Source: Notolepis coatsorum (taxonomy: Eukaryota > Chordata > Actinopteri > Aulopiformes > Paralepididae). From it: a stretch of DNA of 64,000 nt. The number at the start of each line of letters is the position of its first letter. Position 1 is the stretch's first letter. The stretch lies in NCBI GenBank assembly GCA_963971535.1, contig OZ020593.1, forward strand, positions 17,630,822-17,694,821. Direction: 5' to 3'. A program made the position numbers and the translations under genes. Below the pieces are notes generated by a model, which saw nothing but the letters and a program-made list of their open reading frames with translations, was not told the origin of the DNA and ran no database searches. Below, piece after piece: positions 4,740 through 64,000 of this stretch.

Positions 4740-5000
4740 CATGGGGGAGGGGGGGGGGGGGTACAGGTATGGGCAGGATAATAGTAGAAGACATAAATAT
4801 AGGCAAGAAAACTATAGTAAAGATAAAAATAAGCAGTGTAAACAAAATAATTAACTGTGAATATAAGTACAAGTAAACAGTGTAATCAAAGGTGCAGATG
4901 AGGGTATGTATGCCCTGTTATAGTATACATTACAATAAACACTTCTTCAATCTGAATATATACTATGAGTAAGTAAAGTATACAGTATACACAGGTGCAG
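4740..5000 (-). mobile_element. LINE 3'-end fragment (same family as 33640-33995)
   Basis: The reverse complement of this stretch matches 33640-33995: a C-run, then upstream TACCTGCCCATACCTGTA and a TATACTGTTTACTT-like region. The plus-strand G run (4743-4761) is the counterpart of the C run there. It lacks the AATAAAG tail. Confidence 0.55.
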
Positions 5001-5930
5001 TATAGCCACTCTTATTGTCTGGGACCAAATACGGCCATGCCCCACTCCCAGCAAAAAGTGGGAATCTCTAGAATTCGGGCGACGCTGTATACGGAAGTGA
5101 CTCTAAAGGTGACGATTAGACAACACTTTCTGTTGTCAGTAGATGGCAGCATTGGTTTAAAATTAAAAGGTGAAAATGTTGAAAACTACATGAATACATT
5201 TCCCAAGATCCTTAGCACAGGTCACAGGTCACTGGGATGTGTGTATATTCTTCGACGTAATCTGAACAGCGGTAAACTATTACTGCGGCCTCGGTATAGC
5301 GACCGCGAATGGTAAACTAATTATCTTAGCAAAAGTGCGCTGGTAGCGTTACATATGTTGTCTAAAGAGGGACATATGGTACAATTTAAGATTTGAATGA
5401 TAATCGGCATATAAAGGACAAATAAAACATCGTTAATTTGTAAGAAACCTCAATGAAAACAGCACAGGGTAAGTTATATTTGCTATTGTTATGAAAATGT
5501 GATCGAATCCTATAAAAATGTGGACGCATTTGGTCTATGTTTCGTTAAATCAACATTAGAATTTTAAATTTTTAATAAAAAAAAACTATCTTTTTTCTTT
5601 AATATTTTTTTCTATTAATTCTGTTTAAACCAATGGGGTTTTTCTTCACAGTTGCAGATAAAGATTAGGCTACACTAATATTATAGTATTAAAAGAAACT
5701 GATGAGTTATATTCATTAAAGAAAGTTGATTTAATTGATTTAGTTGGGCTGGGGCTTCTCCCTGGGCTGGGGCTGGAAAGTTGATATAATAAAAAAATAA
5801 ATACTAATTTAATCAGATTAATCACTTTATTCAAATTGAGGATTTAGTTTGAGGATATAAAAAAAAAATATATATTATTAAATTATCGGGGACAGCCTTA
5901 GTGCAGTATACATAAGGTACCCTAACTGAC
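5001..5930. other. Unassigned AT-rich sequence
   Basis: I see no gene and no recognisable repeat. Codons in all frames are interrupted often; the only open stretch of note (4995-5315 plus, 106 codons) resembles nothing I know. Bases 5560-5900 are strongly A/T biased. Confidence 0.5.
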
Positions 5931-6530
5931 ACGCAGCAGGTCCAATGAAGGAATACACTCTGTGACTACGGGAGGCTGACGGTTATAGATGCTCAAGTGG
6001 TATTTTTTGTGAAGATAAAGTGTTAAATAGCTCTATATTTCCACAGCCATCACTGATATAGAGTGTTTGGTCAGTAACAAGGGTCTCTCCCGGTCTCTCC
6101 GCTTTCCAGTAAATATTAAATAAATGTTCTGGCATCCCATTCCCACTTCATCCAATCAGGACTGAGAGAAGATAACCCAGCCTAGATGTTATTTCAAGAG
6201 ATATGGCCGTGCCAAATTAGCTCATTGCACTGGCCGAATATTGTACTTGTTTCAGTATTTGCTTAGAACTCGTTTTTATTTCTTATTTTTGAAGTGCAGA
6301 GTTCTCTCTCCTGATTGGATAAAGTGGGAACAAAAATGTATTTTCCATTAACTGCAGAGGAACTGGGAGACCCATGTTACTGACCAAACACTGTATCAGT
6401 GGTGGCTGTCATAATGCAGAGCTATTACATGAGCAAAATAACACTTACAGCATCTTTAATAACTAAACCCCGCCGCACATCTTGGTCCAACGAAGGAAGA
6501 CACTCTGTGACTACATACTGACGGTTAATA
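5931..6530. mobile_element. Foldback (inverted-arm) element, family F1, copy 1
   Basis: Bases 6048-6180 and 6285-6430 are inverted relative to each other: CATCACTGATATAGAGTGTT and TCCAATCAG on the left reappear as AACACTGTATCAGTGGTG and CTGATTGGA on the right. An outer direct repeat (GAAGGAATACACTCTGTGAC at 5946 and a near copy at 6491) flanks the arms. The same arms occur at 50740-51345 and 57375-57775. No coding capacity. Confidence 0.7.
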
Positions 6531-10242: not shown

Positions 10243-11134
10243 CAGGGTTCCCACAGACATTGCAAAATGAAATTCAAGGACTTTTAAGTACTTTTCCAAT
10301 CACTATTTTTCATTTTCAAGGATGTCACTCGAAGGATACAATTCACTTTTAAATGCTGTTTTTTTTAAAGCTTCTTCTTGGCCTGCTTGCCAGCTAGAAA
10401 AAGCTAGAGCATCACACGAGAAGAAGAAATGAGGAAAAGCAGTTGGAGCGAGCGAGACAGCGACAGTTAAATATATTTATTACATGGTGTTTTAACATTC
10501 ACCGAAATGCTTGATTGTGATTGGTCAATAGCCCCCGACAGCGGTGAATTATTTTTCGATAACCACCGGTGATTATTGTTTTTCGCAGCTGGAGTAATCA
10601 AGCCCCACTGACACACACTGTTTCAGTGCAATCAGACACACCTGCCGGGCTGCCCGCGATAATAATAATCACTTTATTTGGGCTGACAGAGCCACAGAAC
10701 AACTGCGATTTGTCAAATGAATTAGGTATATTGTTAGTAAGTTAGCCATGTAATAAGCGGGATAATGTATAGCTATACTCGGTCATCATCGCAAAATAAT
10801 TGACCTTCACTGACGTTTAAAACACCTCGCCTCTGTATTTTAAACTCTGTGTCGGTCAATTATTTTGCGACAATGACCTCGTTATTTTATTATATTATAT
10901 TATATATATTATATTATATTATTATATACATTATCCCTTACATATATTTTTTAAATCAAAACGATTTCTTGATGGATGAACAAAACATTCAATGCGAATG
11001 GTTGGTTTTAATGTCAAGGACTTTTTAAGCACCTTGTTAAAAAAAATCTGTTTTCAAGGAATTCCAGACCTACCTTGACTTTTTTGTAAAAAAACAAGCA
11101 CTTTAAGCACTTCAAGGACCTTGTGCAAACCCTG
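10243..11134. mobile_element. hAT-like element carrying a nested MITE
   Basis: Left end CAGGGTTCCCACAGACATT and inverted right end CAGGGTTTGCACAAGG are terminal inverted repeats. TTCAAGGACTTTT phrases lie inside both ends, as in a common fish hAT-derived repeat. CCTGTC is present on both flanks, but the flanking DNA is itself the 27-bp minisatellite type, so the target duplication is ambiguous. Family F2 is inserted at 10468-10935. Confidence 0.65.
10468..10935 (+). mobile_element. MITE family F2, copy 1 (nested)
   Basis: Shares a long collinear sequence with 16530-17030 and 54572-55035: TTACATGG near the start, GATTGTGATTGGTCAA, CACACTGTTTCAGTG, AATAATCACTTTATTTGGGC, and an inner hairpin. 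In this copy the last part of the hairpin is replaced by a TATTA-rich run (10883-10930). Confidence 0.8.
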
Positions 11135-13800
11135 CCTGTCTCTCTGCTGACGAGTCTCCTGTCTGTCTCTCTGCTGACGAGTCTCCTGTCTCTCTGCTGA
11201 CGAGTCTCCTGTCTGTCTCTCTGCTGACGAGTCTCCTGTCTGTCTCTCTGCTGACGAGTCTCCTGTCTGTCTCTCTGCTGACGAGTCTCCTGCCTGTCTC
11301 TCTGCTGACGAGTCTCCTGTCTGTCTCTCTGCTGACGAGTCTCCTGCCTGTCTCTCTGCTGACGAGTCTCCTGCCTGTCTCTCTGCTGACGAGTCTCCTG
11401 TCTGTCTCTCTGCTGACGAGTCTCCTGTCTGTCTCTCTGCTGACGAGTCTCCTGTCTGTCTCTCTGCTGACGAGTCTCCTGCCTGTCTCTCTGCTGACGA
11501 GTCTCCTGTCTGTCTCTCTGCTGACGAGTCTCCTGCCTGTCTCTCTGCTGACGAGTCTCCTGCCTGTCTCTCTGCTGACGAGTCTCCTGTCTGTCTCTCT
11601 GCTGACGAGTCTCCTGTCTGTCTCTCTGCTGACGAGTCTCCTGTCTGTCTCTCTGCTGACGAGTCTCCTGTCTGTCTCTCTGCTGACAAGTCTCCTGTCT
11701 GTCTGCTGACGAGTCTCCTGTCTGTCTCTCTGCTGACGAGTCTCCTGTCTGTCTCTCTGCTGACGAGTCTCCTGTCTCTCTGCTGACGAGTCTCCTGTCT
11801 CTCTGCTGACGAGTCTCCTGTCTGTCTGCTGACGAGTCTCCTGCCTGTCTCTCTGCTGACGAGTCTCCTGTCTGTCTCTCTGCTGACGAGTCTCCTGTCT
11901 GTCTGCTGACGAGTCTCCTGTCTGTCTCTCTGCTGACGAGTCTCCTGTCTGTCTCTCTGCTGACGAGTCTCCTGTCTGTCTCTCTGCTGACGAGTCTCCT
12001 GTCTCTCTGCTGACGAGTCTCCTGTCTGTCTCTCTGCTGATGAGTCTCCTGTCTGTCTCTCTGCTGACGAGTCTCCTGCCTGTCTCTCTGCTGACGAGTC
12101 TCCTGTCTCTCGCTCTGCTGACGAGTCTCCTGTCTCTCGCTCTGCTGACGAGTCTCCTGTCTCTCTGCTGACGAGTCTCCTGTCTGTCTCTCTGCTGACG
12201 AGTCTCCTGTCTGTCTCTCTGCTGACGAGTCTCCTGTCTCTCTGCTGATGAGTCTCCTGTCTGTCTCTTTGCTGACGAGTCTCCTGTCTGTCTCTCTGCT
12301 GACGAGTCTCCTGAAGTCTCCTGTCTCTCTGCTGACGAGTCTCCTGTCTGTCTCTCTGCTGACGAGTCTCCTGTCTGTCTCTCTGCTGACGAGTCTCCTG
12401 TCTGTCTCTCTGCTGACGAGTCTCCTGTCTCTCTGCTGACGAGTCTCCTGTCTGTCTCTCTGCTGACGAGTCTCCTGTCTCTCTGCTGATGAGTCTCCTG
12501 TCTGTCTCTCTGCTGACGAGTCTCCTGTCTCTCTCTCTGCTGACGAGTCTCCTGTCTGTCTGCTGACGAGTCTCCTGTCTGTCTCTCTGCTGACGAGTCT
12601 CCTGTCTGTCTCCTGACGAGTCTCCTGTCTGTCTCTCTGCTGACGAGTCTCCTGTCTGTCTCTCTGCTGACGAGTCTCCTGTCTGTCTCTCTGCTGACGA
12701 GTCTCCTGTCTGTCTCTCTGCTGACGAGTCTCCTGTCTGTCTCTCTGCTGACGAGTCTCCTGTCTGTCTGCTGACGAGTCTCCTGTCTGTCTCTCTGCTG
12801 ACAAGTCTCCTGTCTGTCTCTCTGCTGACGAGTCTCCTGTCTGTCTGTCTGCTGACGAGTCTCCTGTCTGTCTCTCTGCTGACGAGTCTCCTGTCTGTCT
12901 CCTGTCTGTCTCTCTGCTGACGAGTCTCCTGTCTGTCTCTCTGCTGACGAGTCTCCTGTCTCTCTGCTGACGAGTCTCCTGTCTGTCTCTCTGCTGACGA
13001 GTCTCCTGTCTGTCTGCTGACGAGTCTCCTGTCTCTCTGGTGACGAGTCTCCTGTCTCTCTGCTGACGAGTCTCCTGTCTGTCTCTCTGCTGACGAGTCT
13101 CCTGTCTGTCTCTCTGCTGACGAGTCTCCTGTCTGTCTCTCTGCTGATGAGTCTCCTGTCTCTCTGCTGACGAGTCTCCTGTCTGTCTCTCTGCTGACGA
13201 GTCTCCTGTCTGTCTCTCTGCTGACAAGTCTCCTGTCTGTCTCTCTGCTGACGAGTCTCCTGTCTGTCTCTCTGCTGACGAGTCTCCTGTCTGTCTCTCT
13301 GCTGACGAGTATCCTGTCTCTCTGCTGACGAGTCTCCTGTCTCTCTGCTGACGAGTCTCCTGTCTGTCTCTCTGCTGATGAGTCTCCTGTCTGTCTGTCT
13401 GCTGACGAGTCTCCTGTCTGTCTCTCTGCTGACGAGTCTCCTGTCTGTCTCTCTGCTGACGAGTCTCCTGTCTGTCTCTCTGCTGACGAGTCTCCTGTCT
13501 CTCTGCTGACGAGTCTCCTGTCTGTCTCTCTGCTGACGAGTCTCCTGTCTGTCTCTCTGCTGACGAGTCTCCTGTCTGTCTCTCTGCTGACGAGTCTCCT
13601 GTCTGTCTCTCTGCTGACGAGTCTCCTGTCTGTCTCTCTGCTGACGAGTCTCCTGTCTGTCTCTCTGCTGACGAGTCTCCTGTCTGTCTCTCTGCTGACG
13701 AGTCTCCTGTCTGTCTCTCTGCTGACGAGTCTCCTGTCTCTCTGCTGACGAGTCTCCTGTCTGTCTCTCTGCTGACGAGTCTCCTGAAGTGTCCTGTCCC
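11135..13800. repeat. 27/23-bp minisatellite, about 100 copies
   Basis: The unit is CTGTCTGTCTCTCTGCTGAC followed by GAGTCTC; 23-bp variants lack one CTGT. A degenerate founder-like unit lies at 10201-10242, beyond the hAT-like insertion, and the right edge (13776-13800) ends in a similar GAAGTGTCCTGTCC phrase. On the minus strand all three frames are free of stops inside the array, which makes overlapping open frames of 947 and 737 codons made of RDRQETRQQ-type repeats. Confidence 0.95.
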
Positions 13801-45770: not shown

Positions 45771-45774
45771 AACA

Positions 45775-46300
45775 TTCTGACTTGATGACCCTTCCTTATT
45801 TTATAGTTCCCTTGGTATAGAACGCTGGTATTCTGACATGATGACCCTTCCTTCTTTTATAATTCCCTTGGTATGGAACGCTGGTATTCTGACTTGATGA
45901 CCCTTCCTTCTTTTATAATTCCCTTGGTATGGAACGCTGGTATTCTGACTTGATGACCCTTCCTTCTTTTATAGTTTCCTTGGTATAGAACGCTGGTGTT
46001 CTGACATGATGAACCTTCCTTCTTTTATAGTTCCCTTGGTATAGAACGCTGGTATTCTGACTTGATGACCCTTCCTTCTTTTATAGTTCCCTTGGTATAG
46101 AACGCTGGTGTTCTGACATGATGACCCTTCCTTCTTTTATAGTTCCCTTGGTATAGAACGCTGGTGTTCTGACATGATGACCCTTCCTTCTTTTATAGTT
46201 CCCTTGGTATAGAACGCTGGTGTTCTGACATGATGACCCTTCCTTCTTTTATAGTTCCCTTGGTATAGAACGCTGTTATTCTGATGTGATGACCCTTCCT
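45775..46300. repeat. 56-bp minisatellite, about 9 units, cut by the gap
   Basis: Unit contains TTGATGACCCTTCCTTCTTT and CCCTTGGTATAGAACGCTGG. Successive TGATGACC words are 56 bases apart. Confidence 0.95.
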
Positions 46301-46500
46301 NNNNNNNNNNNNNNNNNNNNNNNNNNNNNNNNNNNNNNNNNNNNNNNNNNNNNNNNNNNNNNNNNNNNNNNNNNNNNNNNNNNNNNNNNNNNNNNNNNNN
46401 NNNNNNNNNNNNNNNNNNNNNNNNNNNNNNNNNNNNNNNNNNNNNNNNNNNNNNNNNNNNNNNNNNNNNNNNNNNNNNNNNNNNNNNNNNNNNNNNNNNN
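46301..46500. other. Assembly gap (200 N)
   Basis: A round number of N adjoining a tandem array: the true length is unknown, and the link across it may be inexact. Confidence 0.99.
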
Positions 46501-46703
46501 GTGAGCGGAGGTGTTTGTGGAGGTTTTTCTTTTCTTCTATTTTCCTTTTTTTTCTTCTTATTTTCCCGTTTCTTTTCTATGTGCACAGTGAGGTGTGGTT
46601 TTATGGGTTAATTTTCCTATCAGGGTAACTGGTGTAAGTGTACAGTGTTGGAGGCGAGTGTATTTTGTTTGGTGAGTGGAGGCGGCGCGCTGCAGGCGGT
46701 GAC

Positions 46704-48039
46704 ATGGCCTCGCAATCAGCAGGACCTGAGTCTGTGTCGCTCAGACACGGGGTGAGGTGTGTCCCCGAGGGGTCTGCTACGGTGGAGGAGGTTCTGAAAG
46801 CTGTCGGCGAGCAGGTAGGATGCGAAAATCTCGCTTATGCATCGCGGATGAATAAAGCTGTGGTGGTTTTTTTGAAAAAGGAAAGTTTGGTAAACAAAGT
46901 AATTGCGAGTGGCATTTTTGTGAGGGATGTGCTTGTGGCCGTATCGCCGCTGTCGGCTCCTGCTACACGGGTAGTCGTGTCTAACGTGCCGCCGTTTATC
47001 AAAGACGAGGCTCTGTCGAGAGAGCTGATGCGCTTCGGGAGGTTTGCGAGTGGTTTCAGACCTATTGCTCTTGGGTGTAAGGAACCTGGGCTGAAGCATG
47101 TACTCTCGTTGCGTAGGCAAGTGTTTATGTATTTGAAAAGCGCAGACCAAACGTTAAATGCTAGTTTCACTGTGAAGTTTGGGGAGAGCTTGTATGCTGT
47201 GTATGCGAGTACTGACAGCTTGCGCTGTTTTGAGTGCGGGGATATTGGACATAAGCGATTCGCTTGTCCGCATCCAAAGCGCGCAGCGGGAGGGGCATCG
47301 CGTCAGCCAAGTGAAAAAATAGTAGAGGTTAATGTGGTAATCACTGCAGAGCAACAGGCAGATACAGGGGGAGTGGAGGATGTTACTGGTGAGACAGAGG
47401 GGCTGGTGGTGGAGGGAGAAGCTGTAGGAGGAGTTGGAGTAGAACTAGAGAGTGATACTGAGACAGGGGGGCTGGTGCTGGAGGGAGAAGCTGCAGGGGG
47501 GAAGCATGCTCCCGAAACAGGTGCACAGCCAGGGCCGGTGCTAGGTTCATCAGATGGAGGGGGGGCCCCTTTCCCCGTGGTTGTAGGGGGGAGTGAAGTT
47601 GACGCAGAGGCCAGTGGTGGTGTGGAGAGAGGGGGGGGGTGAAGTGGTGGAGGGGGGGGGGCAGAATGGGAAGGAGAGGGAAGTTGAGGGGAGCACACTG
47701 GTGGGTGAGGAGGGGATGGATTTAGGGGGGGGTGCTAAGGAGAGGGAGAGTGGGTCTGAGGAAGAGGCATCGGTATCTGGTGATGAGAGTGAGGATTTGG
47801 AAAAGGGGGAGGTGTATACTGCAAGGGAGCTCACCCGGTTTCTTAGGGAAACCAAAAACAAGAAACATTTTCCATTGGGACGTTTTTTCCCAGATCAGGA
47901 AAAGTTTTTAAGGTCTGTGATACATGCTAACAAGGTCACAGGTGGGGGATCAATGATGACACCCAGGAGGAAGTTCCGACTGAATAAGTGGGCTACTAAT
48001 GTCAGGAAAAGAAGATTGTCATCAAAAACAGATGTATAA
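46704..48039 (+). pseudogene. Tx1-like LINE ORF1 (zinc-knuckle nucleic-acid-binding protein), one frameshift
   Basis: The start MASQSAGPESVSLRHGVR is preferred over an ATG 66 bases upstream because homology-like sequence begins there. A CCHC knuckle CFECGDIGHKRFAC lies near residue 174 (CX2CX4HX4C), typical of the ORF1 RNA-binding protein of Tx1-group LINEs. A glycine/glutamate-rich linker follows. The frame ends at 47640 in a run of nine G (47631-47639), and the C-terminal part (KKHFPLGRFFPDQEKFLRSV, basic PRRKFRLNKWATNVRKR) continues in another frame to the stop at 48039. A one-base slip in the G run explains the break; a sequencing error is possible. Confidence 0.85.
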
Positions 48040-48119
48040 TGTATGGACTGTATGGTGCACATCTGCGGGTGGTTTTCTTTTTCTGGTTCTTGTTCTCTGT
48101 TTTCTCCCTCTTTTTTCAC

Positions 48120-48368
48120 ATGGAGGTCCTTCGGATTGATTGTGCTGGGGATGGTGTGAAAGGGGGGCTGTTTTCTGATTATGCAAAACAGAAACATTTA
48201 AATGTTATTTTTGTACAAGAGACCCATAGTGATGTGGGTAATGAGGTTGACTGGGGACTCAGTTGGAGGGGGGGTTTGGTGATGAGTCATGGCACTAATA
48301 ATAGTGCAGGGGTGGCTGTCCTGTTCTCTCCTGGACTTGGGGTCAATATTACATCGCAGAAGGAGGTG
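48120..48368 (+). pseudogene. Tx1-like LINE ORF2, N-terminal endonuclease fragment
   Basis: Starting at ATG 48120, the product contains LNVIFVQETHSD (the catalytic-glutamate box of APE-type endonucleases) and SAGVAVLFSPGLGVN, both typical of Tx1-group ORF2. It follows ORF1 by 80 bases as in a two-ORF LINE. The match ends near SQKEV, where HLTF-like codons begin, and the frame stops at 48384. The reverse transcriptase, which should occupy about 3 kb more, is absent. Confidence 0.8.
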
Positions 48369-49078
48369 AAGGTGTGGTGGCACTGATGATCCAGATGCCG
48401 GTTACTCAGGGCGACAAGACCCTGGTGCATCACCCTCCGGCGCACCAAGAGCAGTGAGGTGAACGAGCTGCGGGGGCGTCTGGTGGAGCGCCTGGGGCGG
48501 GGCCTGTTCAGCGGTTCAGACGAGGAGTGTTCTGTCTGCCTGGAGTCGGTCCGCCTGCCTGTCATCACACACTGTGCTCATGTCTACAGCCGTTCTTGCA
48601 TCACTCTGGTCGTCAGCACGGAGCAGGAACATGCGCGCTGTCCTCGCTGTCGAGGTGAGATCAGGGCCAGTCGGCTGGTGGAGTTCCCACAGGAGATGGA
48701 AGAGGAGGAGGTTAAAGCTCTGATGGACAGCCTGCTCAGGGTGCGCGATGAGGACGGCAGCATCAAGAGTGTGGTGGTCTCTCAGTTCGAACGTTTCCTC
48801 ACCATACTAGAGACCCCATTCAGGGACCATGGTTTCAGTTTTGTGCGTCTGGACGGCAGATTGACCCAGAAGAGGCGGGCCCAGGTCATCAGGGAGTTCC
48901 AGAGCCCCGGCCGCGGCCTCGTCATCTTGCTCCTGTCACTCAAGGCTGGACCCTGCATCGGACCGTTTTGGGTAGACCAGGAACGTGGTCGTCACCAAGT
49001 TCATCGTGAGGGACTCTGTGGAGGAGAGTATGGGGGAGATCCAGAGGGAGAGGCAGGACCGGGTGGAGAGTGCTTGGG
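48369..49078 (+). pseudogene. hltf: HLTF-like retrocopy: RING finger plus helicase C-terminal domain, joined to a Tx1 LINE
   Basis: HLTF is a SWI/SNF-family translocase and RING E3 ligase of DNA-damage tolerance. From 48375 WWH and, after a frame change, IQMPVTQGDK, ITLRRTKSSEVN lead into DEECSVCLESVRLPVITHCA at 48525. RING ligands in the 249-codon frame starting at 48459 are C24, C27, C39, H41, C47, C61, C64; the ligand expected at position 44 is serine. Helicase parts follow: SIKSVVVSQFERFLTILE, FSFVRLDGRLTQKRRAQVI, ILLLSLKAG. Then another frame gives TRNVVVTKFIVRDSVEESMG near the C-terminus. About 100 residues are missing before ELRGRL, about 26 after LKAG, and the DRCHRLGQ region is damaged by a stop. 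No introns occur although vertebrate HLTF has many exons, so this is a processed, dead copy. Confidence 0.87.
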
Positions 49079-49356
49079 GACTGGGGAATGCAATGGGTAC
49101 TGTGGGGGGGGAGGGGCTGAACATATGTTTTTGAATGTCAAGTGGTTTTATGTGCTGGAGGAGGTTTTTGGAGTGTGTAGGGGTGGTTGTGGGTGTGTGT
49201 GTGTGTGAGTGTGTGTGTGTGTGGGTGTGTGCGTGCGAGTGGGTGTGTGTGTGGGTGAGTGTGTGGGTGTGTGTGTTGTTTTTATGAAGATGCCGTGAGA
49301 TTTTTGTGTCTCTATTGACTGTTTTTAGTTGACATGTTTTAATAAAAGAACATCAA
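49079..49356 (+). mobile_element. Probable Tx1 LINE 3' UTR
   Basis: G-rich then GTGTGTG-rich sequence, TTTTTATGAAGATGCCGTGA, and TTTTAATAAAAGAACATCAA with an AATAAA signal near 49341. Attribution to Tx1 is inferred from position and look. Confidence 0.5.
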
Positions 49357-49429
<73 letters not shown>

Positions 49430-49455
49430 TCTCTCTCCCTCTCCCTCTCTCCCTG
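49357..49455. repeat. (CT)n microsatellite
   Basis: Directly follows the polyadenylation signal region. Confidence 0.95.
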
Positions 49456-51360: not shown

Positions 51361-52925
51361 CCATCCTTCTCCACCTCAGAGCTCCACCCTCCTCCCTCTC
51401 AGAGCACCATCCTCATCCCTATCATCCCTCCATCTTCCTCCCTATCATCCCTCCATCTTCCTCCCTATCATCCCTCCATCCTCCTCCCTCTCAGAGCTCC
51501 ATCCTCCTCCCTCTCAGAGCTCCACCCTCCTCCCTCTCATCCCTCCATCCCCCTCCCCCTCAGAGCTCCATCCTCATCCCCCTCAGAGCTCCACCCCCTC
51601 CCTCTCAGAGCTCCACCCTCCTCCCTCTCATCCCTCCATCCCCCTCCCCCTCAGAGCTCCATCCTCCTCCCTCTCAGAGCTCCACCCTCCTCCCTCTCAG
51701 AGCTCCCCCTCCTCCCTCTCAGAGCTCCCCCTCCTCCCTCTCAGAGCTCCACCCTCCTCCCTCTCAGAGCTCCCCCTCCTCCCTCTCAGAGCTCCACCCT
51801 CCTCCCTCTCAGAGCTCCCCCTCCTCCCTCTCAGAGCTCCATCCTTCTCCCTCTCAGAGCTCCATCATCCCCCCCTCTCAGAGCTCCCCCTCCTCCCTCT
51901 CAGAGCTCCACCCTCCTCCCTCTCAGAGCTCCACCCTCCTCCCTCTCAGAGCTCCATCATCCTCCCTCTCAGAGCTCCATCATCCTCCCTCTCATCCCTC
52001 CATCCTCCTCCCCCTCAGAGCTCCACTCTCCTCCCTCTCACAGCTCCACTCTCCTCCCTCTCAGAGCTCCATCCTCCTCCCCCTCAGAGCTCCACTCTCC
52101 TCCCTCTCAGAGCTCCACCCTCCTCCCCCTCAGAGCTCCACCCTCCTCCCCCTCAGAGCTCCACCCTCCTCCCCCTCAGAGCTCCACCCTCCTCCCTCTC
52201 AGAGCTCCACCCTCCTCCCCCTCAGAGCTCCACCCTCCTCCCCCTCAGAGCTCCACCCTCCTCCCTCTCAGAGCTCCACCCTCCTCCCCCTCAGAGCTCC
52301 ACCCTCCTCCCTCTCAGAGCTCCATCCTCCTCCCCCTCAGAGCTCCACCCTCCTCCCTCTCAGAGCTCCACCCTCCTCCCTCTCAGAGCTCCACCCTCCT
52401 CCCCCTCAGAGCTCCACCCCCATCCCTCTCAGAGCTCCACCCTCCTCCCTCTCAGAGCTCCATCCTCCTCCCTCTCAGAGCTCCATCTTCCTCCCCCTCA
52501 GAGCTCCATCTTCCTCCCCCTCAGAGCTCCACCCCCCTCCCTCTCAGAGCTCCACCCTCCTCCCCCTCAGAGCTCCAGCCTTCTCCCCCTCAGAGCTCCA
52601 TCATCCTCCCTCTCAGAGCTCCACCCTCCTCCCCCTCAGAGCTCCACCCTCCTCCCTCTCAGAGCTCCACCCTCCTCCCTCTCAGAGCTCCACCCTCCTC
52701 CCCCTCAGAGCTCCATCATCCTCCCTCTCAGAGCTCCATCATCCTCCCTCTCAGAGCTCCATCATCCTCCCTCTCAGAGCTCCACCCTCCTCCCTCTCAG
52801 AGCTCCATCATCCTCCCTCTCAGAGCTCCATCCTTCTCCCTCTCATCCCTCCATCCTCCTCCCTCTCAGAGTTCCATCCTTCTCCACCTCAGAGCACCAT
52901 TCTCCTCCCTCTCAGAGCAGCATCA
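51361..52925. repeat. 23-bp minisatellite, about 65 units
   Basis: Unit AGAGCTCCACCCTCCTCCCT followed by CTC. Plus-strand frames lack stops so a 594-codon proline/serine/leucine frame appears. Because 23 is not a multiple of three, the three translations alternate with a 69-base period, which argues against coding selection. Confidence 0.95.
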
Positions 52926-61089: not shown

Positions 61090-62206
61090 GCCGCCTGCGT
61101 ACTATGTCCTATTCTGTATACATGTCCTCCTCATCTTTCTCTTGTCTCTTGTCTGCTTACTATGATATGTCCTATTCTGTTAGTACAGTACATGTCCTCC
61201 TCATCTTTCTCTTGTCTCTTGTCTGCTTACTATGATATGTCCTATTCTGTTAGTACAGTACATGTCCTCCTCATCTTTCTCTTGTCTCTTGTCTGCTTAC
61301 TATGATATGTCCTATTCTGTTAGTACAGTACATGTCCTCCTCATCTTTCTCCTGTCTCTTGTCTGCTTACTATGATACTGTATGTCCTATTCTGTTAGTA
61401 CAGTACATGTCCTCCTCATCTTTCTCCTGTCTCTTGTCTGCTTACTATGATACTGTATGTCCTATTCTGTTAGTACAGTACATGTCCTGCTCATCTTTCT
61501 GTTTTCTCTTGCCTGCTTACTATGATATGTCCTATTCTGTTAGTACAGTACATGTCCTCCTCATCTTTCTGTTTTCTCTTGCCTGCTTACTATGATATGT
61601 CCTATTCTGTTAGTACAGTACATGTCCTCCTTATCTGTCTCTTGTCTCTTGCCTGCTTACTATGATATGTCCTATTCTGTTAGTACAGTACATGTCCTCC
61701 TCATCTTTCTCTTGTCTCGTGCCTGCTTACTATGATATGTCCTATTCTGTTAGTACAGTACATGTCCTCCTCATCTGTCTTTTGTCTCTTGTCTGCTTAC
61801 TATGATATGTCCTATTCTGTTAGTACTGTACATGTCCTCCTCATCTGTCTTTTGTCTCTTGTCTGCTTACTATGATATGTCCTATTCTGTTAGTACAGTA
61901 CATGTCCTGCTCATCTTTCTCTTGTCTCTTGTCTGCTTACTATGATATGTCCTATTCTGTTAGTACAGTACATGTCCTGCTCATCTTTCTCTTGTCTCTT
62001 GTCTGCTTACTATGATATGTCCTATTCTGTTAGTACAGTACATGTCCTCCTCATCTTTCTCTTGTCTCTTGTCTGCTTACTATGATATGTCCTATTCTGT
62101 TAGTACATGTCCTGCTCATCTTTCTGTTTTTTCTTGCCTGCTTACTATGATATGTCCTATTCTGTTAGTACAGTACATGTCCTGCTCATCTTTCTGTTTT
62201 CTCCCC
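61090..62206. repeat. 70-bp minisatellite, about 16 units
   Basis: Unit contains TCCTATTCTGTTAGTACAGT, ACATGTCCTCCTCATCTTTC and GTCTGCTTACTATGATA. Successive CTTGTCTCTT words are 70 bases apart (61141, 61211, 61281). Confidence 0.95.
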
Positions 62207-62669: not shown

Positions 62670-62985
62670 GAATGATCATTGCATTTATATAGCGCTTTTC
62701 TAGACACTCAAAGCGCTCCCCAGGATGTAGGGTGGAAATTGGGATTGATATCAGCCAATTAAGGGGGAAGGGATGATTAGGTGGCCTTGATGTCAAATAC
62801 CTGATTTGGGAATTTGGCCAGGAACATCGGGGAACCCCCTACTGTTTGTGATATGCACCCTGGGTTCTTTAATGACCGAATTCAGTCAGGACCTCGGTTT
62901 AGCATCTCATCTGAACGACGGCACTCACAGCTGTACGGTGTCCCTATCAGCGTAACAGGGGCATTGTTACTGTTACTGGCAAGTC
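62670..62985 (+). mobile_element. Interspersed repeat R3
   Basis: TTTATATAGCGCTTTTCTAG, CAAAGCGCTCCCCAG, AACCCCCTACTGTTTGTGAT, GTCAGGACCTCGGTTTAGCA and ATCTGAACGACGGCACTCAC: a widespread fish repeat. Its last part runs directly into the 44-bp array. Confidence 0.75.
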
Positions 62986-64000
62986 CAGAGGACAGAGTGC
63001 TCCCTGCTGGACAACAACACCACCAGGTCCAGAGGACAGAGTGCTCCCTGCTGGACAACAACACCACCAGGTCCAGAGGACAGAGTGCTCCCTGCTGCAC
63101 AACAACACCACCAGGTCCAGAGGACAGAGTGTCTCCCTGCTGGACAACAACACCACCAGGTCCAGAGGACAGAGTGCTCCCTGCTGGACAACAACACCAC
63201 CAGGTCCAGAGGACAGAGTGCTCCCTGCTGGACAACAACACCACCAGGTCCAGAGGACAGAGTGCTCCCTGCTGGACAACAACACCACCAGGTCCAGAGG
63301 ACAGTGCTCCCTGCTGGACAACAACACCACCAGGTCCAGAGGACAGAGTGCTCCCTGCTGGACAACAACACCACCAGGTCCAGAGGACAGAGTGCTCCCT
63401 GCTGGACAACAACACCACCAGGTCCAGAGGACAGAGTGCTCCCTGCTGGACAACAACACCACCAGGTCCAGAGGACAGAGTGCTCCCTGCTGGACAACAA
63501 CACCACCAGGTCCAGAGGACAGAGTGGAGCTGGACAACAACACCACCAGGTCCAGAGGACAGAGTGCTCCCTGCTGGACAACAACACCACCAGGTCCAGA
63601 GGACAGAGTGCTCCCTGCTGGACAACAACACCACCAGGTCCAGAGGACAGAGTGCTCCCTGCTGGACAACAACACCACCAGGTCCAGAGGACAGAGTGGA
63701 GCTGGACAACAACACCACCAGGTCCAGAGGACAGAGTGTCTCCCTGCTGGACAACAACACCACCAGGTCGAGAGGACAGAGTGCTCCCTGCTGGACAACA
63801 ACACCACCAGGTCCAGAGGACAGAGTGTCTCCCTGCTGGACAACAACACCACCAGGTCCAGAGGACAGAGTGCTCCCTGCTGGACAACAACACCACCAGG
63901 TCCAGAGGACAGAGTGCTCCCTGCTGGACAACAACACCACCAGGTCCAGAGGACAGAGTGCCCCCTGCTGGACAACAACACCACCAGGTCCAGAGGACAG
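62983..64000. repeat. 44-bp minisatellite, about 23 units, runs off the right edge
   Basis: Unit GTGCTCCCTGCTGGACAACA followed by ACACCACCAGGTCCAGAGGA, CAGA. Variants with GTGTCTCC (46 bp) or GTGGAGCTGG (shorter). All three minus frames lack stops, giving overlapping frames of 307-352 codons that are not genes. Confidence 0.95.

Follow-up and report, generated by a model that had tools for sequence, protein, structure and literature searches.

A Tx1-like LINE family carrying a fragment of the host repair gene HLTF in place of its reverse transcriptase

Introduction

How does part of a DNA-repair gene come to lie inside a LINE, and is the result a single accident or a mobile family? A locus of Notolepis coatsorum raises this question. 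The window is the whole stretch of DNA analysed, 64,000 nucleotides of contig OZ020593.1 (positions 17,630,822 to 17,694,821). The preliminary description, made from the letters alone, read here a zinc-knuckle ORF1 and the start of an ORF2 endonuclease, running without a break into HLTF motifs up to the C-terminus and then into a polyadenylation-signal tail. It held that the reverse transcriptase (RT) was missing, and that a family still using Tx1 ends might exist. We followed this chimera through the genome, from its source gene to its parent LINE.

Results

The copy in the window

All features of the unit are on the forward strand. The LINE 5'UTR covers 46501-46703. Its initial 23 bases (AGGGTGCTGGGAGTGAGATTGAC in other copies) fall inside an N gap at 46301-46500. 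ORF1 follows at 46704-48038. It is recognized by its identity to the parent element (L014 versus L041, below) and by a weak zinc-knuckle match (zf-CCHC, E 0.034 in a Pfam search, below the Pfam cut-off); for the ORF1 of copy L012, Pfam lists no family at E <= 0.01. The window copy is frameshifted here, with frames at 46638-47642 and 47587-48039. A single long frame is present in some other copies, for example L012 and L021.

The start of ORF2, with about 83 endonuclease codons, occupies 48120-48367. Pfam reports Exo_endo_phos at E 0.012, below the cut-off. A protein search returned a sole match, YTX2 of Polyodon (50% identity, E 5.3e-10), and the identity to protein P0131 is 66%. The LINE meets HLTF at 48367-48368. 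The HLTF fragment (48368-49070) contains WW..VIQ, LRRTKSSEV, the RING and part of the helicase C lobe, followed by out-of-frame remains of the C lobe and C-terminus. Within 48390-49208, Pfam finds RING (E 4.3e-7) and Helicase_C (E 8.8e-5). The best fish HLTF protein matches at E 3.6e-52 with 67% identity. In total, 572 proteins match at E <= 1e-5. Most of the 120 matches listed are named fish HLTFs, and the remainder are unnamed or hypothetical proteins that share the SNF2, RING and helicase domains. The LINE resumes at 49071-49361 with the last ~20 ORF2 codons (AWGLGNAM..), the 3'UTR, AATAAA and a 3' tail ending in ..AACATCAAAAGTC. A (TC)n microsatellite at 49360-49451 follows this unit end at about 49361.

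The order and motifs first described were confirmed by Pfam and by the fish HLTF matches. The unbroken reading holds in other copies but not in this one, whose fusion frame is broken by deletions of 1 nt and 5 nt in comparison with the other copies and whose RING has one cysteine changed to Ser. Past SLKAG, the window copy is out of the HLTF frame, and about 85 codons are absent before the RING. The polyadenylation signal does stand at the unit end, and the sequence from about 49071 is LINE ORF2 end and 3'UTR. The window copy is a decayed family member.

The window has other repeats as well. A 23-bp tandem array of 68 copies at 51361-52918 leaves all three forward frames open for more than 500 codons, all Ser/Pro/Leu-rich. 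Minisatellites lie at 11131-13786 (27/77-bp), 61119-62203 (70-bp), 62983-64000 (44/218-bp) and 45774-46300 (56-bp). The last of them enters the N gap upstream of the chimera.

The junction recurs across the genome

A 33-base string spanning the LINE-HLTF junction occurs at 75 places in the 3.42-Gb genome (69 exact, six with one mismatch). The reversed pattern, used as a control, gave no match. Because of its deletions, the window copy is not among the 75. With a 501-bp query across the junction, at least 42 matches were obtained (40 of 145 candidates scored). Sixty-seven matches came from a protein query in the RING region. They comprise three host HLTF exons, 63 chimera places (window included) that start near the chimera's ELR breakpoint, and one match with 34% identity and internal stops. 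Contigs with numbers from 251 upward carry 13 of the 75 places. Some of these contigs are short (12-33 kb in the cases displayed), and the 13 places may be second haplotypes. Contig C1301 has two junction places 3.9 kb apart. We read 34 family loci, in part or whole, besides the window copy.

These counts bear on whether the chimera arose in assembly or read joining. The N gap at the start of the window copy would fit such an artefact. However, the identical junction stands on many contigs, and the copies read have differing flanks and graded divergence. We rejected an artefact, to which we give a negligible probability. The proposed search for the junction near 48366-48375 therefore did not end in a unique site at an assembly join.

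Shared ends and a (TC)n target

Among 33 oriented loci tested, 15 have a readable 5' end and 25 a readable 3' end. At the remaining loci, the end lies beyond the fetched stretch or in N, or is altered or missing. A (TC)n repeat stands immediately before 13 of the 15 intact 5' ends, and four or more TC units follow 19 of the 25 3' ends. Five of the six 3' exceptions enter imperfect pyrimidine-rich sequence; L036 does not. The units are mostly flanked by (TC)n microsatellite on both sides, where target-site duplications are not readable. The chimera family shows the target-specific insertion of the Tx1 clade, in which the element Kibi targets TC repeats.

Copies L014 and L028 have full 5' ends with flanks other than (TC)n, although (TC)n is present on their 3' side. 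A 5' template jump or a subsequent deletion is possible at these two sites.

The parent LINE

We searched for the parent with the related endonuclease P0131 as query, including the part without a counterpart in the chimera. It gave at least 17 loci at 57-65% identity and more than 160 bits (150 of 15009 candidates scored). Two of the 17, L040 and L041, were read. Both share the 5' and 3' ends of the chimera, are flanked by (TC)n at either end and have an ORF2 frame open over 1332 codons. They are 98.0% identical across 4520 bases. In L040, ORF1 is deleted; in L041, the ORF1 frame stops after 316 codons. The ORF2 of L040 matches RVT_1 (E 2.9e-32) and zf-RVT in Pfam. It has no endonuclease family at E <= 0.01, yet it aligns through the endonuclease region with a protein named YTX2 by its source (46% identity over 1311 aligned positions). 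On this similarity, the parental ORF2 appears related to Tx1 elements. The dN/dS between the ORF2 of L040 and L041 is 0.37 (p 0.009). The chimera ends are thus common to an RT-encoding element of the same genome, and the suggested family with Tx1 ends is present.

Compared with L041, copy L014 is 93.2% identical over 1950 aligned bases (5'UTR, ORF1 and endonuclease start) and 90.1% over 335 bases past the HLTF part. What HLTF replaced in L041 is a stretch of ~3.55 kb, from 2709 to roughly 6263; the HLTF insert measures 0.7-0.8 kb. In the 13 chimera copies whose two ends are readable, the length is 2.2-3.0 kb (L011, 2873 bp), and L041 has 5776 bp end to end. All 13 are therefore too short for an RT, whose absence had been correctly noted. 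Autonomy takes an endonuclease and a reverse transcriptase of the element's own, and the chimera has only the ~83 endonuclease codons.

A candidate RT-bearing member of the family at C30:124377174 was rejected. Its "1379-aa frame" is mostly N and TC repeat, and the locus is an old truncated copy.

A spliced HLTF source and its joins

The host HLTF gene bears introns and lies on contig C4. Its HIRAN domain is at 213561919 (one match genome-wide), with further exons at 213519480-213517577. The old copy L036 aligns to the host exons in four pieces, with 65/65, 60/65, 154/163 and 88/88 identical bases. L035 aligns like L036, except that its last piece has 87/88. The two exon joins inside aligned pieces are both exact GT-AG splices. 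As had been foreseen, the alignment to host exons is spliced and intron-free, with no HLTF introns on either side. The HLTF part is, by this alignment, derived from spliced mRNA.

Two details of the host gene stand apart. Its middle exons are 6-8% off L036, and the flanking pieces are identical. Also, the host SSMVN and SVHLPV (C4 HLTF, exons in L031) are unlike the three other fish HLTFs aligned.

The 5' join falls in the interior of a host exon, where one base (T) is common to HLTF and the LINE. The 3' join reads ..GTGGAGAG/TGCTTGGGGA, and on its right side the LINE ORF2 is in its own frame. In L032, the 5' join is in frame with a parent-like endonuclease start (GSLNINGARDG). In L035, the HLTF frame stays open across the helicase C lobe and ends at the stop of the LINE itself, with endonuclease and HLTF in different frames. 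So the frame is kept at the 5' join in L032 and at the 3' join in L035, and none of the copies read has both in one open frame. Two gaps lie inside HLTF. The first, of ~85 codons as counted on Diretmus HLTF (SSEVN/ELR), is between LRRTKSSEV and the RING and off exon edges. The second has 36 bases (EEV/KAL) and starts at an in-exon GT.

Could splicing have joined LINE and HLTF RNAs, as has been proposed for some human L1 chimeras? For human LINE-1/mRNA chimeras, joins at splice edges have been reported (PMC13174262). The 36-base gap opens at the in-exon GT (GAGGAG/GTCTCA), which may mean that the captured mRNA was alternatively spliced there. The 5' join, however, is within a host exon and has no preceding AG (CGACC/TGAAG), which disfavours splicing there. 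We regard it as very improbable as the origin of the chimera.

A further route is a separate processed retrocopy of HLTF, or recombination at the DNA level, bringing HLTF into a LINE copy that then lost its remaining ORF2. The very short overlaps at the joins would also fit end-joining, and the 85-codon gap off exon edges would fit a later deletion. The HLTF part is spliced and intronless, like a processed retrocopy. In the seven copies inspected at this point, it has no HLTF 3' end with a poly(A) tail of its own but passes into the LINE ORF2 end and 3'UTR. Moreover, this route requires more steps, and none of the 34 other loci read has HLTF together with remaining ORF2, or an HLTF poly(A) tail. 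We think it quite unlikely.

One copy, L018, has ~1.35 kb extra within its HLTF part (about 4758-6104 as oriented), with an end near AATAAA. It looks like a later insertion.

Age and subfamilies

Over ~1050 bases, divergence from the column majority does not exceed 0.6% in 18 of 26 copies and is 0.7-2.7% in the others. For this reason, the mobility of the chimera looks recent, and the family may still be active. In a tree of HLTF segments, the host and five old copies group together (98/96), apart from 27 young copies (100/99), with L034 and L025 intermediate; of the 31 inner branches, 27 lack resolution, and the bootstrap had yet to settle. The deletions follow a series. Compared with older copies, later ones have 21 bases gone at GLKNLQT, a shortened endonuclease start and the HLTF frame lost after SLKAG. 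The youngest subfamily has lost a further 63 bases.

A mosaic ORF1

We compared 14 copies from the two young subfamilies by 200-column windows. In ORF1, the differences from L011 reach ~4% per window. In the endonuclease window, they are 0-1.7%, mostly at or below 0.6%. The four-gamete test on 36 informative sites fails in 125 of 630 pairs. By region, the failures are 0/28 in the endonuclease and HLTF part, 32/91 in the first half of ORF1 and 14/66 in its second half. Several minor ORF1 alleles of the young chimera copies are the allele of the parent L041. From these patterns, chimera copies appear to have exchanged the ORF1 half with one another and with parental LINEs, for which template switching or gene conversion would suffice. 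Some of the failures could come from repeat mutation, or from misalignment in the repetitive middle of ORF1. Among the young chimeras L010-L028, the endonuclease and HLTF half is clonal, whereas the ORF1 half is mosaic. Because of this mosaic pattern, the ORF1 dN/dS of 0.08-0.41 (21 pairs, seven chimera copies) is not readable as selection in the chimera.

Coding capacity of the HLTF part and tests for selection

Of 26 copies, 13 have a fusion frame that stays open through SLKAG, and 24 retain the full set of eight RING ligands; the two without the full set are the window copy and L015. A structure prediction for the L008 fusion has a mean pLDDT of 57.9, better in the RING/helicase stretch.

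We estimated dN/dS for the HLTF part between old and young copies. It is 0.45-0.95 across all 24 pairs, with few changes. For example, L012 and L036 differ by eight synonymous and 15 nonsynonymous changes, in a stretch that includes ~20 endonuclease codons. The host and L036 differ by five synonymous and eight nonsynonymous (tally without the misaligned last block). With the 26 copies pooled, HLTF has a ratio of 0.83, compared with 1.77 in the endonuclease part and 0.70 in the tail. By dN/dS, neither the 24 old/young pairs nor the 26 pooled copies show selection on the HLTF part. The HLTF piece is most likely a passenger.

The main rival to a passenger is a functional, selected fusion of endonuclease stub, RING and part of the helicase. 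Such a protein might, for example, act as a RING ligase, dominant-negative or mis-targeted, and so weaken the repair that the host directs against the element. Besides the open frames and complete RING ligands, it is favoured by deletions that preserve the frame, namely the gaps in HLTF ahead of SLKAG (~255, 36, 21 and 3 bases) and the loss of 63 bases downstream. The frame maintained at either join, in L032 and L035, also speaks for it. Nevertheless, the dN/dS values above and the host-L036 tally argue against function. The copies read are without the helicase N lobe, the young ones are out of frame past SLKAG, and none joins both ends in one open frame. The open frame of young copies is partly a matter of their youth. 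Taken as an explanation of the family, a functional fusion seems unlikely.

Discussion

We think it very likely that the chimera is a non-autonomous Tx1-like LINE family. Its birth would have involved two template switches, and the parental ORF2 protein would move it. The ancestor would be a Tx1-like LINE inserting into (TC)n repeats. During reverse transcription, synthesis may have left the LINE RNA close to the ORF2 stop codon and continued on spliced HLTF mRNA; a second switch would have brought it back to the LINE RNA within the endonuclease region. The resulting element retains the two ends of the LINE, its ORF1 and its (TC)n target, but the reverse transcriptase is gone. The parental LINE, of which open ORF2 copies persist, presumably supplied the ORF2 protein that copied the chimera RNA in trans. 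Successive master copies, each with more HLTF deletions, may then have taken it to some 75 places. In a bolder version, the chimera, with a piece of a host fork-repair gene in the place of the RT, would make a fusion that hampers host HLTF, use the parental ORF2 protein and swap ORF1 with the parent. We consider this improbable.

HAL1 (half-L1), which retains ORF1, and SVA-type elements are non-autonomous and LINE-carried, and so, presumably, is the chimera. To our knowledge, neither has a host repair-gene fragment in the place of the RT. Like Tx1-clade elements such as YTX2 of Polyodon, with which the parental ORF2 aligns, the system inserts into a repeat. The chimera family differs from them in being without nearly all of ORF2 and in carrying host HLTF instead. 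Target specificity within the Tx1 clade is described in the part of the literature consulted (PMC4640811).

Fusions of a LINE with cellular RNA are known from the available portions of two other reports. These describe bipartite and tripartite template-switch chimeras in Magnaporthe (PMC2104539) and human LINE-1/mRNA chimeras (PMC13174262). As far as those portions go, the chimeras are single insertions or sets of separate ones. The chimera described here is unlike them in that the host mRNA lies within the LINE, the joins preserve the frame and the family has amplified. SymbioLINE-Dnmt, by the excerpt at hand, is also a LINE family with a host-derived gene (PMC5890265). There, ORF2 trees were built and purifying selection on the DNMT domains was described; in the chimera, the RT is gone and dN/dS did not show selection on HLTF. 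By title and start of abstract, we found no report of a LINE/HLTF chimera or of a captured-gene LINE of such structure. A search with the L008 fusion protein gave 20 matches; none of them aligns over more than 46% of its length, and none has both endonuclease and RING domains, so we know of no second species.

Here, one LINE/mRNA chimera has grown into an amplifying family with a host fragment inside the LINE. The parent, the source gene and the subfamily series are in one genome. Therefore, the birth of the chimera, its spread and a possible use of the captured repair gene can be tested. The family illustrates a way for LINEs to carry host RING/helicase sequence about.
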